From a virus, in IMG/VR virus record IMGVR_UViG_3300025879_000055, positions 1 to 33,533 of that record: a stretch of 33,533 nucleotides of DNA. One strand, written 5' to 3'. The notes under the pieces were generated by a model. The model ran no database searches, was not told where the DNA came from, and saw nothing but the letters and a program-made list of their open reading frames with translations. Made by a program: the position numbers and the translations under genes. This document shows, in pieces, positions 26,484 through 33,156 of the stretch (position 1 is its first letter; the number at the start of each line of letters is the position of its first letter).

Positions 26484-26671
26484 TAGATAGTTTAGCGGTA
26501 TTGCAGTCGGTAGTCAAAGACATCGATAAGACATTTGATAAAGACCCATTGATTCGCAGAGTTTGCAAGATGGTTCTTGAAGAGTACAAAGTGGCTTTGA
26601 ATAAGGCTGAAAAGAAAAGAATACAAGAGCTTATTAAAAATAATGAGCCTTCACATAAATGGGATCTATGA
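26480..26671 (+). CDS. Unknown small helical protein
   Basis: 63 aa, charged and helical (DSLAVLQSVVKDIDKTFDKD, VLEEYKVALNKAEKKRIQEL). Overlaps the ribbon gene by 4 bp, and its stop overlaps the ATG of the phosphoesterase (ATGA at 26668). No family recognised. Confidence 0.55.
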   Translation: MIDSLAVLQSVVKDIDKTFDKDPLIRRVCKMVLEEYKVALNKAEKKRIQELIKNNEPSHKWDL

Positions 26672-27810
26672 GCAAGTATGCACCTTACAGAGAAGAAATA
26701 CAGAGCCTTAGGGCTAGTGGCAAAACGAGTCATCAAATAGCGGTTGAGCTATCAGGCAGGTATGGAATCAGCCTTAATGCTCGGTCTATCCGAGAGAATC
26801 TACAAAACTGGAGTAGTGAAAATTCAGAGGTATCAAGAATACTAACAGACAAAGGGCACGATCCTAGTAATTGGTCTCATGCTTGGGTAAAAAGCAAAGA
26901 GGGTACGGTCTTTATAAAGAATACAACAGGTCTAGTCACTCATGAAGACTTTAGAAACGACCTTTTAGAATCGCTTAAAAGTTACTCGCCATCCTTTAAA
27001 AAGATTAAGAGGGAAAAGATTACTGATCCTCATTGCTTAGTGATTGACATCGCTGATCTTCATATAGGTAAACTAGCATCTGCCCTAGAAACAGGTGAGG
27101 AATATAATGTTAGCAAGGCAATTGAACTAGCATCTCAAGGAGTGGCTGGTATCTTGCAGAAGGCAGAAGGATTCAAGATTGATCAGATAGTCTTTGTGAT
27201 AGGCAACGATGTGCTTCATGTAGATACACCAGGAGGAACAACAACAAGCGGAACTAATCAAGATACTGATGGCACTTGGTATGATAACTTCATGGCAGCG
27301 AAAGACCTTTATATTAACGTAATTGAAAAGCTAGTCCAGGAGGCAAATGTTCACATAGTTCACAACCCTTCTAATCACGATTACATGACTGGCTTCATGT
27401 TGGCTGATACAGTCTACTCATGGTTCAGGAAGCATCCGAACATCACCTTTGATGTTAGCATGGCTCATCGTAAGTATTATGCCTATGGTGCAAACTTGAT
27501 AAGCACGTCTCATGGAGATGGGGCAAAGATGCCTGATATGCCTTTGCTGATGGCTAATGAGAGTGGTAAGGCTTGGGCGTCTACAAAGTTCAGGTACATC
27601 TACCTACACCATATTCATCACATGAAAAAGATAAACTTCTTGAGCGGTCAAGACTATCATGGTGCAACGGTTGAGTATTTAAGATCTGTTAGCTATACGG
27701 ACTCGTATCATCATCGTAACGGATACCAACATGTACCAAAGTGCGTAACAGCTTTTGTTCATCATAAAGACTTCGGACAAGTCGCTAGATTAACCCATCT
27801 CTTTAATTAG
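26668..27810 (+). CDS. DNA-binding metallophosphoesterase (calcineurin-like)
   Basis: 380 aa from 26668; ATGA overlap favours this start over the ATG at 26659. Residues ~5-55 form a helix-turn-helix (EIQSLRASGKTSHQIAVELS). The rest is a two-metal phosphoesterase: D130-x-H132 (IADLHIG), G-N-D at 179-181 (VIGNDVLH), N-H-D at 236-238 (NPSNHDYM), His282 (TSHGDG) and H-H-x-H at 314-317 (YLHHIHH). Such phage enzymes may process nucleic acid ends. The last 29 residues and stop (27721-27810) are duplicated, with recoding, just after the HNH gene, so the present 3' end was probably supplied with that insertion. Confidence 0.88.
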   Translation: MSKYAPYREEIQSLRASGKTSHQIAVELSGRYGISLNARSIRENLQNWSSENSEVSRILTDKGHDPSNWSHAWVKSKEGTVFIKNTTGLVTHEDFRNDLLESLKSYSPSFKKIKREKITDPHCLVIDIADLHIGKLASALETGEEYNVSKAIELASQGVAGILQKAEGFKIDQIVFVIGNDVLHVDTPGGTTTSGTNQDTDGTWYDNFMAAKDLYINVIEKLVQEANVHIVHNPSNHDYMTGFMLADTVYSWFRKHPNITFDVSMAHRKYYAYGANLISTSHGDGAKMPDMPLLMANESGKAWASTKFRYIYLHHIHHMKKINFLSGQDYHGATVEYLRSVSYTDSYHHRNGYQHVPKCVTAFVHHKDFGQVARLTHLFN

Positions 27811-27854
27811 GGATAATTGGCTTGTCTTTAAGGATATTTTTTTTAACTTTGTTT

Positions 27855-28409
27855 ATGAGTAAATTTTATACAATTCCAAACACTAACGGTCTTTATGAAA
27901 TCAATGAAGGCTCAGAGATAAGAAGAATAAAGCATAGGGTTAAAAACAACATCAACGGAGGAACTAGGTCGGTTGGTGGTAAGATTCTATCTCAAAAAAC
28001 AAAAAGCAACGGATATAAAGAAGTTGCCCTTTATATTGAGCCACAAAAAGGAGTTATGAGGTATGTTCATAGACTTATGTATCAAACCTTTGTTGGCGAA
28101 ATACCCAGTGGTTATGAGATAAATCATATTAATGGTGATAAATCAGATAATAAAATAACTAATCTTGAGCTTGTCACACCTAGCCAAAACAGACTACATT
28201 CATGGCATGTATTAGGAAATAAAAACCTAAAAGCCATGAAGGGAGAGAATCATCCTAGGGCGATTGTTAGCGAAGACTTTGTAAGAAAAGCAAAAGATCA
28301 ATATAAAAACGGTATAAGCGTAAGAGATATTTACGACAACTGTAAAGAGAAAATTACACTATCTTCATTGAGAAAGATTTGCTATGGGCAAACATGGAGG
28401 CATATATAA
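27855..28409 (+). CDS. HNH homing endonuclease, NUMOD4-like, inserted at a gene 3' end
   Basis: 184 aa from the ATG at 27855; a TTG at 27822 would add only hydrophobic non-conserved residues. The N-terminus FYTIPNTNGLYEINEGSEIRR resembles the NUMOD4 repeat. The HNH core is YVHRLMYQTFVGEIPSGYEI then NHINGDKSDNKITNLELVT, with His72, Asn90-His91, Asn99 and Asn103. The C-terminal helix-turn-helix ends in LRKICYGQTWRHI. It cuts DNA at a target site to spread its own gene. It ends exactly where a second copy of the phosphoesterase 3' end begins. Confidence 0.9.
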   Translation: MSKFYTIPNTNGLYEINEGSEIRRIKHRVKNNINGGTRSVGGKILSQKTKSNGYKEVALYIEPQKGVMRYVHRLMYQTFVGEIPSGYEINHINGDKSDNKITNLELVTPSQNRLHSWHVLGNKNLKAMKGENHPRAIVSEDFVRKAKDQYKNGISVRDIYDNCKEKITLSSLRKICYGQTWRHI

Positions 28410-28504
28410 GACAAGGCTACCAGCACGTTCCTAAATGCGTAACAGGTTTCCTTCACCACAAAGAGTTCGGTCAGGTCGCAAGGCTAACCCATCTCTTTAA
28501 ATAA
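28409..28504 (+). pseudogene. Displaced 3' end of the metallophosphoesterase gene
   Basis: In frame, 28415-28504 reads GYQHVPKCVTGFLHHKEFG then QVARLTHLFK and a stop. It matches residues encoded at 27721-27810 at 25 of 29 positions (71 of 90 bases). There is no start codon. The HNH stop codon (28407-28409) touches it. This is most simply the original gene tail, pushed downstream when the HNH gene arrived together with a donor version of the same tail. Confidence 0.85.
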
Positions 28505-28515
28505 AAAATAGAAAA

Positions 28516-28716
28516 ATGAAAATAACAGTAAAATATTACGACACGACTATCACAATAGAAAAAGAAGAAGATCCAACCCTCTATGAGATGCTAGATACTT
28601 TTAGATCGTTAGCACTAGCTATGACCTTTGAATCTTCCTCTTGGGATGAGGCTATACTAGAAATGGCAGATGAAATAGCGTTAGATAAAAAACTAAACAA
28701 TGGAGATAGAGTTTAA
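28516..28716 (+). CDS. Unknown small acidic protein
   Basis: 66 aa: an N-terminal beta hairpin (KITVKYYDTTITIEKEEDPT) and two acidic helices (LYEMLDTFRSLALAMTFESS, WDEAILEMADEIALDKKL). It resembles small phage proteins of unknown function in early regions. Overlaps the 28700 ORF by 17 bp. Confidence 0.55.
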   Translation: MKITVKYYDTTITIEKEEDPTLYEMLDTFRSLALAMTFESSSWDEAILEMADEIALDKKLNNGDRV

Positions 28717-28922: not shown

Positions 28923-30239
28923 ATGGAAAGAGTATACAATAAGCAGGTCAATGTCTATGATGCTTCCATAAGTCGAATTGATTATATCTTTAAAAACTTT
29001 GAGAGAATATATTTAAGCTTTAGTGGAGGTAAGGACTCTGGCGTTATGCTTAATCTTGTTGTGCAATACATGAAGCGAAACAATATAAAAGACAAGATTG
29101 GTGTAATGGTCATGGATAATGAAGCTAATTACACTTATAGCACTGATTTTATGCTAGAAATATTGGATCAGCACAAAGATTATTTAGACATATATTGGTG
29201 CTGCCTTCCTATTACATTACCATGTACTGTAAGCTCTTACGCAACTGAATGGCAGTGCTGGGGCAATGAAGATCGCTCTTTGTGGATTCAAGATAGACCT
29301 GACAGAGACTATGTTGTTACGTGGGAAAATCACATAGCAAAATATAATATGGACTTCTTCCAAGAGAACATGGACTATTCCGTTTTTTGGGACAAGTTTG
29401 GAGATTGGTATGCTCAAGGGAAGAGTTGTGCTTGTCTAATAGGGATTCGTACTGACGAATCATTAAATAGATTTAGGGCTATAATGAATGATCGAAAGCA
29501 AATGAAGGATGGGCATCAATGGACAAAAAAGAATACAGAATACGTTTACAATTGTTACCCAATATACGACTGGAGGACAGATGACGTGTGGGTTGCCAAC
29601 GGTAAGTTTGATTGGAGGTACAATAAACTGTATGATATATTTTATAAATCTGGTATGTCAATCTATCAAATGAGAGTGGCATCTCCTTTCATGTCAGAGA
29701 GTAAATCAAGTCTTAATATGTATCGAGTTATAGATGGTCAGATATGGAGTCGATTATGTGCAAGAGTTTCAGGAGCAAACTTTATTGCAACCTATGGCAA
29801 GCAATTAACGTATCATTCTTTTAAGCTGCCAGAAGGGCATACATGGAAATCCTTTACAAAGTTTTTACTAGATACCTTGCCAAAAGAGGTTGCTGAAAAT
29901 TTTAAAAACCGATTTATTCAGTCTATAAAATATTGGTGGAGAGTAGGTCGGGGGTTAGATGATTCCACCATAAATGAACTGAAAGAAAATAAAATTGACT
30001 TTAAACTAGGGGAATTAACAAGGCATGGAAACAAAAATAAAAGATGTGTTAGAATGCTGCCTCCAGATCATTTAGACCAATTAAAAAGGCATCCTAGTGA
30101 AGTTACTAGCTGGAAAAGATTTGCAATCACAATACTTAAAAATGATCACACTTGTAAATACATGGGGTTAGCTCCAACTATAGAGCAGGCAAAAAGACAA
30201 AGAGAAATAGCAAACAAATATAAAAACGTAGGAAAATGA
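28923..30239 (+). CDS. ibrA: IbrA-like PAPS-reductase/PP-loop protein (DUF3440)
   Basis: 438 aa. The PP-loop SFSGGKDSG (residues 32-40) binds ATP in adenylylating enzymes of the PAPS reductase/ThiI/DndC group. The conserved GIRTDESLNRFRAI and YPIYDWRTDDVW segments (middle), YKSGMSIYQMRVASPF and the late SWKRFAITILKNDHTCKYMGLA are the DUF3440 signature. Family members occur next to ParB-like IbrB in E. coli and many phages; the substrate is not settled. First gene of a coupled operon (4-bp overlap downstream), preceded by a promoter-like motif. Confidence 0.88.
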   Translation: MERVYNKQVNVYDASISRIDYIFKNFERIYLSFSGGKDSGVMLNLVVQYMKRNNIKDKIGVMVMDNEANYTYSTDFMLEILDQHKDYLDIYWCCLPITLPCTVSSYATEWQCWGNEDRSLWIQDRPDRDYVVTWENHIAKYNMDFFQENMDYSVFWDKFGDWYAQGKSCACLIGIRTDESLNRFRAIMNDRKQMKDGHQWTKKNTEYVYNCYPIYDWRTDDVWVANGKFDWRYNKLYDIFYKSGMSIYQMRVASPFMSESKSSLNMYRVIDGQIWSRLCARVSGANFIATYGKQLTYHSFKLPEGHTWKSFTKFLLDTLPKEVAENFKNRFIQSIKYWWRVGRGLDDSTINELKENKIDFKLGELTRHGNKNKRCVRMLPPDHLDQLKRHPSEVTSWKRFAITILKNDHTCKYMGLAPTIEQAKRQREIANKYKNVGK

Positions 30240-30628
30240 AAGTAAGAACAATTGAGCAAACTAAGGACACAGAAAGAGAGGTTAAGTTTACAGGAGGAAC
30301 AAGCTTTAGACCTGTATTAGCTAAAGATGGACTAGGGTTTTCAGTACACAAAACAGTGGTCGATAAAGGTAGGTGGCATTGGCACTATAAAAATCATTTA
30401 GAAAGCTGTTACTGCATAGAAGGGAAAGGCTTATTACATAACCTAGAAACAGGACAGAGCTTTGAAATAAACCCAGACACAGTATACATGTTAGACAATC
30501 ATGATGATCATGAGTTTGAGGCATTTGAAGAGACTATTTTAATTAGCGTATTTAATCCTCCTATTGTAGGAGATGAATCGCATGACAAAAACGGAAATTA
30601 CAAACTAAAAGAAATAAACAAAAAATGA
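30236..30628 (+). CDS. ectC: Ectoine-synthase-like (EctC) cupin
   Basis: 130 aa, EctC length. The sequence follows EctC: FRPVLAKDGLGFSVHKT, HWHYKNHLESCYCIEGKG, INPDTVYMLDNHDDHEF and ISVFNPPIVGDESHDKNG. Glu56, Tyr84 and His92 correspond, one residue off, to the iron ligands I recall for the Paenibacillus lautus enzyme (Glu57, Tyr85, His93). Thr40, Phe106, Glu114 and His116 also match recalled active-site residues, but the recalled Cys105 is Ser104 and Trp21 is not conserved. EctC cyclises N-acetyl-diaminobutyrate to ectoine. EctA and EctB are absent. It overlaps both neighbours by 4 bp, between IbrA and IbrB. Confidence 0.85.
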   Translation: MKVRTIEQTKDTEREVKFTGGTSFRPVLAKDGLGFSVHKTVVDKGRWHWHYKNHLESCYCIEGKGLLHNLETGQSFEINPDTVYMLDNHDDHEFEAFEETILISVFNPPIVGDESHDKNGNYKLKEINKK

Positions 30629-32185: not shown

Positions 32186-32198
32186 TTTAGTATATTTG
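32169..32198 (+). promoter_or_regulatory. Promoter at the end of terS, driving the noncoding RNA
   Basis: TTTC (32169-32172, one base off TTTG) and TATATTTG (32191-32198) with an 18-bp spacer, the same geometry as the terS promoter. Transcription should begin near 32205, just inside the first helix. Confidence 0.6.
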
Positions 32199-32201
32199 CA
32201 T

Positions 32202-32462
32202 CAGTCTGTGAATCGGGGAAACTACGGGGCGACAGATTGATTAGCACAAGCCTGATAGCATGGTGCAACAGCAACTAAAGGAGTACGCTGGCTAGGGTCG
32301 CAACAGTCGATGAGCGACAAGAATTGAGGGTGATTCCTCTAAGAACTCCAAGCATTATCAATTTGACTGTGTTTTGATAATGTACCCTATGTGAACTCAC
32401 CGACAGCGACAAGCATATTTGGGTTAAGTTTGGTCTATCACTAGGCTAAACTATACCCTTTT
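32202..32462 (+). ncRNA. Candidate structured noncoding RNA between terS and terL
   Basis: About 260 nt without a credible ORF but with many helices: CAGTCTGT/ACAGATTG (32202-32209/32232-32239), GTCGC/GCGAC (32297-32301/32314-32318), GAGG/CCTC (32326-32329/32336-32339), CATTATCAA/TTGATAATG (32353-32361/32374-32382) and AGTTTGGTCTA/TAGGCTAAACT (32427-32437/32442-32452, 11 bp). Its G+C is higher than that of the surrounding gaps. It has a promoter before and terminators after. It lacks the tRNA-like T arm of tmRNA. Not identified with any family I know. Confidence 0.65.
32421..32462 (+). terminator. Terminator of the noncoding RNA
   Basis: GGGT (32421-32424) pairs with ACCC (32455-32458), then a 2x2 internal loop and the 11-bp stem with loop TCAC (32438-32441), followed by TTTT (32459-32462). 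Confidence 0.65.
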
Positions 32463-32613
32463 AAATCTACCTCTAGCTCTAAGCATATTATATTACTAGA
32501 ATATTATAAACAACTTATCGTTCATACAATCAATTCAAGAGGCGGTCAGAAATGGTTGCCTTTTTTTATACCTATGTGTGTGCTGATTAGCTAAAACATT
32601 AGTATATTGAGGT
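32463..32613 (+). other. AT-rich gap between the RNA and the HNH gene
   Basis: No ORF. Contains the second terminator (32541-32567) and a TATATTG sequence (32603-32609) that could be a weak -7 box just ahead of the HNH ATG. Confidence 0.4.
32541..32567 (+). terminator. Second intrinsic terminator before the HNH gene
   Basis: GGCGGTC (32541-32547) pairs with GGTTGCC (32554-32560) including G-U pairs, loop AGAAAT, followed by T7. Confidence 0.8.
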
Positions 32614-33156
32614 ATGAAAGAAATATGGAAAGACATAATAGAATTTAACTCTGAGTATCAAATATCTAATTTTGGTAGAATCAGAAGTAAGGAAGCAGTT
32701 ATTATCAGATCAAATGGCAGACCACACAAAAGAATTAGTAAAATCCTTAAGACAGCTGTAAGTAAAAAGTATAAATACCCACGTGGTGCGGTTTGTGTTA
32801 ATAAGAAAATGAAACCTTACAAGATACACAGGCTTGTAGCTAGATACTTTGTTGCAAACCCTTATGGAAAGCCTGAGGTTAATCACATAGATGGAAACCC
32901 ACAAAACAATCATTACACAAATTTAGAATGGGTTACTAGGCAAGAAAACATAAAACATTGCATTGACAACAACCTTCAAACTGCTTTTAAGGGTGAGGAG
33001 GTTGGAACGTCTATTTTAAAGGAAGATCAAGTAAAGCAAATAAGAAAAGAGTTTAAACCAAGAATTGTAACAAGGTCATTTTTAGCACAAAAATACAATG
33101 TGTCAGAAGCGACAATAAAAGATATTATATACAGAAGGACATGGAGGCACGTGTAA
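32614..33156 (+). CDS. HNH homing endonuclease with NUMOD4, between terS and terL
   Basis: 180 aa. NUMOD4 at residues 3-28 (EIWKDIIEFNSEYQISNFGR). HNH core: YKIHRLVARYFVANPYGKPE (69-88) then VNHIDGNPQNNHYTNLEWVT, with His72, Asn90-His91, Asn99 and Asn103. A C-terminal helix-turn-helix (LKEDQVKQIRKEFKPR, RSFLAQKYNVSEATIKDIIY) ends in RRTWRHV, like the other HNH protein here (GQTWRHI). The last 16 bp overlap the terL start. Known terminase-linked HNH proteins of HK97 type are different; NUMOD domains point to a mobile homing gene. Confidence 0.9.
   Translation: MKEIWKDIIEFNSEYQISNFGRIRSKEAVIIRSNGRPHKRISKILKTAVSKKYKYPRGAVCVNKKMKPYKIHRLVARYFVANPYGKPEVNHIDGNPQNNHYTNLEWVTRQENIKHCIDNNLQTAFKGEEVGTSILKEDQVKQIRKEFKPRIVTRSFLAQKYNVSEATIKDIIYRRTWRHV

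Follow-up and report, generated by a model that had tools for sequence, protein, structure and literature searches.

How can a gene for a homing-type endonuclease come to stand directly behind a phage repair gene, with the end of that repair gene present both in front of it and behind it? This question is raised by a virus record of 33,533 bases, which we refer to over its whole length as the window. All parts of the locus lie on the plus strand. The target gene codes for a phage DNA-repair exonuclease/metallophosphoesterase (26668 to 27810; PHROG 704 'DNA repair exonuclease', E 3e-70), and a NUMOD4 + HNH_3 gene of homing-endonuclease type with 184 aa (27855 to 28409; Pfam HNH_3 2.7e-18, NUMOD4 2.3e-5) starts 44 nt past its stop. 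The front tail (27721 to 27810) closes the exonuclease gene in frame and is the functional copy, and a rear tail lies flush with the HNH stop (28409 to 28504, with 28415 to 28504 as the 90-base counterpart of the front tail). The next gene (28516 to 28716) begins 11 nt 3' of the rear stop.

Since no Rfam match was found in the window and the target ORF is uninterrupted, the HNH gene is, as judged from the sequence, free-standing and outside any intron or intein. A promoter-like site of the Bacteroidota type (TTG-N19-TAACTTTG, 27822 to 27851) precedes it; here we applied what we take to be the Bacteroidota promoter consensus, whose loose form occurs nine times in the window when both strands are counted. 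A like-spaced promoter-like site also precedes the HNH gene of another phage, L007.

Comparison of the two tails

Just as the original prediction had described, the tail occurs twice, before and right after the HNH gene, with identity at 71 of the 90 bases and 25 of the 29 residues and mostly silent changes, and the front copy keeps the exonuclease whole by supplying the in-frame end of an uninterrupted 383-aa ORF. Between the tails 19 codons differ, 15 of them silently, and 16 of the 19 base changes fall on the third position. A tblastn search of the window with the rear peptide matched the front copy at E 3e-15, which excludes a chance likeness. The true start of the similarity is 28409 (R, Q), the last base of the HNH stop codon, and the longest exact string common to both tails has only 16 nt, so that a confusion of the tails by the assembler is unlikely. 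Two further statements of the prediction stood in part. The rear copy, described as lacking a start, indeed cannot encode the enzyme, but an ATG in its frame lies within the 3' end of the HNH gene (28394 to 28396) and gives a possible 36-residue ORF. Silent changes also dominate in the tail that had been called recoded, but a donor tail that has diverged in the ordinary way is the better description of it.

When 19 random changes were put into either tail in a simulation of 4000 draws, they produced about 13 non-silent codons on average, and four or fewer were reached in 0 of 4000 draws with either copy. This contradicts drift without function and indicates that both tails diverged as working genes. 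Purifying selection has acted in both tails, and the pattern of changes suggests that they most likely diverged in two phages and then came together.

In a structure model of the exonuclease (mean pLDDT 85.7), built from 46 sequences after an earlier 3-sequence model had been poor, the front tail makes up the final pair of beta strands (359-366 and 370-378), both predicted with confidence, and G370, Q371, R374 and F379 are invariant across eight diverse homologues. Both observations indicate that the tail matters to the exonuclease. A search by sequence with the exonuclease against solved structures gave nothing convincing, and a fold search with the model gave weak matches only, metallophosphoesterases among them.

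Origin of the tails and link to the HNH gene

The exonuclease gene is probably a hybrid whose 3' end has been replaced, and the rear tail is probably what remains of the gene end that the recipient itself had. The HNH gene is lacking from the close relatives L004/L006, two contigs whose tails are the same, and L005, which share 84% protein identity with the exonuclease. Over 31 residues the rear tail has 2 differences to L006 and 5 to L005, and the front tail has 6 to each, so the relatives do not match the front copy; a match to the front copy had been named as speaking against the prediction. The expectation that they resemble the rear tail was borne out at the protein level and in the spacing to the next gene, with 6-7 nt from stop to next ATG in L004/L006 and L005 and 11 nt behind the rear stop. 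DNA identity and phylogeny give no decision between the copies: synonymous identity to L006 and L005 is about equal, with 13/29 and 12/26 for the rear and 11/25 and 12/25 for the front tail, and a tree of 91 tails groups the rear tail with L005/L006 at a support of only 73, which is not significant, and does not reject the reverse (p 0.50).

Besides, the front copy carries Y347, three codons before the junction, where W is conserved in 97% of 105 relatives; codon 347 is TGG in 117 of 122 loci. Because a motif from the extreme end of the tail served to collect these relatives, conservation at the tail end is built in; position 347 lies outside this motif. The G+C content, calculated over 90 bases only for each tail, is 47% in the rear and 39% in the front copy, with 38% in the window. 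When the front gene is compared with L006, synonymous identity decreases from 80/141 to 35/85 over the final 106 codons (p 0.03); the same drop against L005 is not significant (p 0.42), and the L006-L005 pair stays level. A foreign 3' part that begins upstream of the tail would fit the drop against L006. On the sequence data as a whole, a foreign front and a native rear tail appear to be the better, although not proven, reading. A donor of the front tail together with the HNH gene was not found.

How closely the second tail is tied to the HNH gene can be judged from a scan with the tail motif, which returned at least 120 stretches; 124 loci were read and 121 had a tail of sufficient length, not all of them independent (L121 is the L004 contig). 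A duplication without the HNH gene, which the prediction had regarded as a counter-argument, was found at none of these 121 loci among the matches listed, and the window alone has a second copy. The HNH gene is absent at the same site in L004/L006 and L005, where the tail runs into the next ATG within the 6-7 nt given above, and an HNH match was likewise lacking from the fragmentary records to which L003, L004, L005 and L006 belong. In L007/L008, an exonuclease of 49% identity is directly followed by an HNH gene of 52% identity. This HNH lineage therefore accompanies the exonuclease target in two distant phages, that of the window and that of L007/L008. L007 has no second copy of the tail, which indicates that such elements can lack the remnant; the L008 sequence breaks off within the HNH gene. 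The ten residues of the exonuclease at the junction (345-354) rank 57th of 374 such stretches in conservation, and those just behind them are ordinary.

A second contig of the same phage, L003 (IMGVR_UViG_3300003427_000048), is 100% identical in the two parts compared and ends at window position 27839, just 5' of the HNH start. This end perhaps reflects a mixed population in which some members carry the HNH gene and others do not.

Other parts of the window deserve mention in their own right. A second NUMOD4/HNH_3 gene (32614-33156) lies directly before the terminase large subunit, whose start at 33141 falls in its last codons; a terminase stub before this HNH gene was not found. The intergenic stretch from the presumed small-terminase gene to the second HNH gene (32186-32500) folds better than its shuffles (z -2.86) and has no Rfam match. 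The contig ends (1-122 and 33412-33533) share a 122-nt overlap located in the terminase, in which 7 third-position differences occur, every one of them silent, and because of these differences the ends represent two variants of one phage population, or the genome is not a simple circle. Further upstream, a phage-borne ectoine synthase (30236-30628; Pfam PF06339, E 9.7e-42) adjoins a PAPS-reductase/DUF3440 gene (28923-30239).

Recurrence of the layout at other loci

Two scans of viral contigs and one genome scan provided at least 344 HNH genes that were read, 305 of them with flanks, and in these we looked for a peptide encoded in the 450 nt 5' of the gene that recurs within 200 nt 3' of it. 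When a score of at least 55 was required, with the copy starting no more than six residues from the stop, a flush second copy was present, among the matches listed, at 10 of 305 HNH genes versus 8 of 3181 control ORFs taken from these loci (Fisher p 5e-7). L202, the control with the best score, turned out to be a NUMOD4/HNH_3 gene as well, and the other controls are mostly low-complexity in look. One of the ten, L258 (score 55), looks like a repeated non-coding, intron-like stretch and is discounted, and two loci below the cut-off, L370 (44) and L445 (43), were added by eye. Several candidates were set aside: L165 consists of two consecutive HNH frames, no shared gene end was seen in L141 and L145, L380 (46) and L409 (43) have the look of chance, and the skunavirus loci L540, L541, L547 and L550 score 45-53, are not flush and were not counted. 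For these skunavirus loci, the two neighbour genes, identified by position only, adjoin in LP9207 without an HNH gene.

The 3'-end form consists of a complete gene upstream, the HNH gene, and behind it a second, truncated 3' end. This form has six cases including the window; the targets of the others are a DNA methyltransferase (L287, by Pfam), an exonuclease of the PD-(D/E)XK kind (L179, named after its matches), a tyrosine recombinase (L381, named by eye from the sequence) and a small cysteine-rich protein (L382), and one locus has no assigned target (L226). In each of the six, the start of the second copy falls no further than 5 nt before or 7 nt after the first base of the HNH stop. The 5'-end form has a short stub of a gene start, then the HNH gene and then the full gene with its own start. 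Here the targets were read from the sequence as terminase-like (L199, L339), ParB-like (L333, L370) and helicase-like (L481, L202), and one is annotated as an AAA ATPase (L445). The start codon of the downstream gene lies within the HNH 3' end in L199, L339 and L370; in the window, the ATG at 28394 (rear frame) and the terminase start at 33141 are likewise placed inside HNH 3' ends.

Several breakpoints fall on what we take to be active-site motifs, namely phosphate-binding loops, the glycine motif of the methyltransferase and the tyrosine of the recombinase. This agrees with the taste of homing endonucleases for conserved sites, as described in the available part of PMC2988022. Behind the HNH gene of L199 and L339, the terminase frame stops a few codons past GGTS, and we suspect a group I intron in the phosphate-binding loop and collaborative homing at these two loci. 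Close HNH-free relatives were found neither for L382 among 397 family genomes (13 matched including its own, the others being 33-41% identical) nor for L287 and L179, whose best phage protein matches reach 46% and 31%.

Named relatives are at hand for L445, which is filed under a Staphylococcus caeli genome and is in fact a Lactococcus skunavirus nearly identical to phage 63302. Among 26 HNH_3 matches in 16 named phage records, 63302 was the only one with a flush second copy. Its 34-nt stub 5' of the HNH gene matches the beginning of the AAA ATPase allele carried by sk1 and fd13 with 97% and 91% identity, and the full gene behind the HNH gene represents the other allele, with 96% and 95% identity to LP9207 and CB14. 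Because the stub is of the sk1/fd13 type and the downstream gene of the LP9207/CB14 type, the stub represents a remnant of the ousted allele. A promoter segment of these phages also matches elsewhere in fd13, sk1 and CB14; such repeated segments may have taken part in the exchange, so that cutting by the HNH enzyme is only a putative cause of it.

Proposed homing with replacement of the target end

Taken together, we regard the exonuclease/HNH locus as a phage variant of homing with end replacement, and we consider it rather likely that the HNH gene came by homing with a donor tail (front, foreign), while the recipient's tail was left behind (rear) and the target survived. In such an event, the HNH enzyme would cut the exonuclease gene of a co-infecting relative, presumably near codon 349/350. 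The left break end would be repaired off the donor, so that the exonuclease end, the promoter-like site and the HNH gene are copied, and the result would be a complete enzyme with a final part taken from the donor, in which most of the differences are silent. At the right end, a one-sided repair would have joined the severed tail of the recipient directly to the HNH stop, where it would persist as an untranslated or peptide-only remnant. The donor spelling would presumably remove the cut site and confer probable immunity; a putative self-immunity through altered codons is plausible.

Other histories can be weighed against homing with end replacement. The reverse direction would leave the front gene wholly native and place the HNH gene, together with a captured foreign 3' tail, behind its stop codon. 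DNA distances and G+C content give no preference to the rear tail as the native one and so leave room for this history, but we consider it unlikely, because the rear tail is closer in protein to the two HNH-free relatives and keeps a native-like spacing to the next gene, the rare Y347 stands in the front copy, and the stub is the ousted allele in one case with named relatives, the 5'-end case of 63302. Somewhat less credible still is a two-sided homing from a donor that already had the order front tail, HNH gene and rear tail, with the rear tail acting as right homology arm. A second copy within a few nt of the HNH stop in all six 3'-end cases looks like such a conserved unit, but L007, the sole other phage found with this HNH lineage and target, is without it.

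A tandem duplication of the tail in place, followed by drift and a later HNH insertion, has very little probability and nothing specific in its favour: neutral drift would lead to about 13 non-silent codons where 4 are seen, a duplicated tail without HNH gene is missing among the 121 loci (matches listed), and the second copy directly abuts the HNH stop, just as in unrelated loci. On the silent pattern, the 121 loci and the flush junction, a simple tandem duplication was rejected. The smallest chance falls to an assembly artefact that joined two strains, even though the record shows strain variation in its ends (122 nt of overlap with 7 silent differences) and the second contig of the same phage stops at 27839, 5' of the HNH start. 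The copies have no exact string longer than 16 nt in common, the junction lies exactly at the HNH stop and the layout recurs in other records, and an assembly error was rejected on these grounds.

Homing with end replacement has a counterpart in fungal mitochondria, where, according to the available text of PMC3630166, a mobile endonuclease ORF carries a foreign C-terminus and the native one lies downstream (Allomyces atp6; Glomus atp6, atp9, cox2 and nad3), and the native copies keep the protein of relatives almost unchanged; a further fungal case is given in the part available of PMC4019555. As in these elements, the endonuclease ORF of the window lies between two copies of a C-terminus, of which the upstream one completes the gene in frame. 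In contrast, the fungal enzymes described there are LAGLIDADG or GIY-YIG proteins of mtDNA and ours is a NUMOD4/HNH_3 protein of a phage, and a near-identical relative exists for the fungal native copy, unlike at the phage locus. A remnant flush with the HNH stop and the mirrored 5'-end form at other loci belong, as far as those texts go, to the phage layout only. The layout thus works like the fungal element, but in phages and with another nuclease family.

Parker et al. are said to have observed one-sided (illegitimate) homing of the T4 td intron in laboratory intron crosses. The repair proposed here resembles it in using homology on one side only, with the other end attached in its absence, and is deduced from a natural locus. 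For the td intron, the accessible part of PMC2988022 describes one-sided repair with joining at short matches. The same source, in that part, also allows a comparison with the intronless homing of T4 seg and mob genes, in which, as here, the endonuclease gene lies beside a replication or repair gene and flanking donor sequence is co-converted; however, seg and mob sit between conserved genes, have distant cut sites and are described there without a left-over target end (PMC2988022). With free-standing enzymes, it is assumed that the recipient no longer has the cut site once it has acquired the donor allele, as stated in the available portion of PMC12724721, a skunavirus HNH study. That portion makes no mention of left-over target ends, and neither does the corresponding part of PMC10448857 on nucleases at phage exchange boundaries. 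Among the titles and abstracts listed in searches of the open-licence literature, which mostly leaves subscription papers outside, we found no phage case of the layout. In its working logic, and in this respect only, the locus resembles the HomeR drive, as outlined in the available text of PMC7968924: a nuclease-linked element with a re-coded 3' end of an essential target, which is, unlike the window, an engineered Cas9 drive in flies.

An insertion at conserved codons would kill the gene, and this locus and about a dozen others suggest that replacement of the severed end lets phage HNH genes live there. Tentatively, and with more doubt than confidence, we suggest that phage HNH endonucleases may have, besides introns and inteins, a general third route into conserved coding sites, in which they carry a protein-preserving, cut-resistant replacement of the 3' or 5' end; they would then be natural 'home-and-rescue' drives, with the left-over end as a fossil of the invasion. 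The remnant shows where the invasion took place, and changes that confer immunity should reside in the donor end, so that pairs of sequences allow cut site, immunity and transfer direction to be tested. End replacement would thereby give a natural counterpart of recoded-rescue gene drives.
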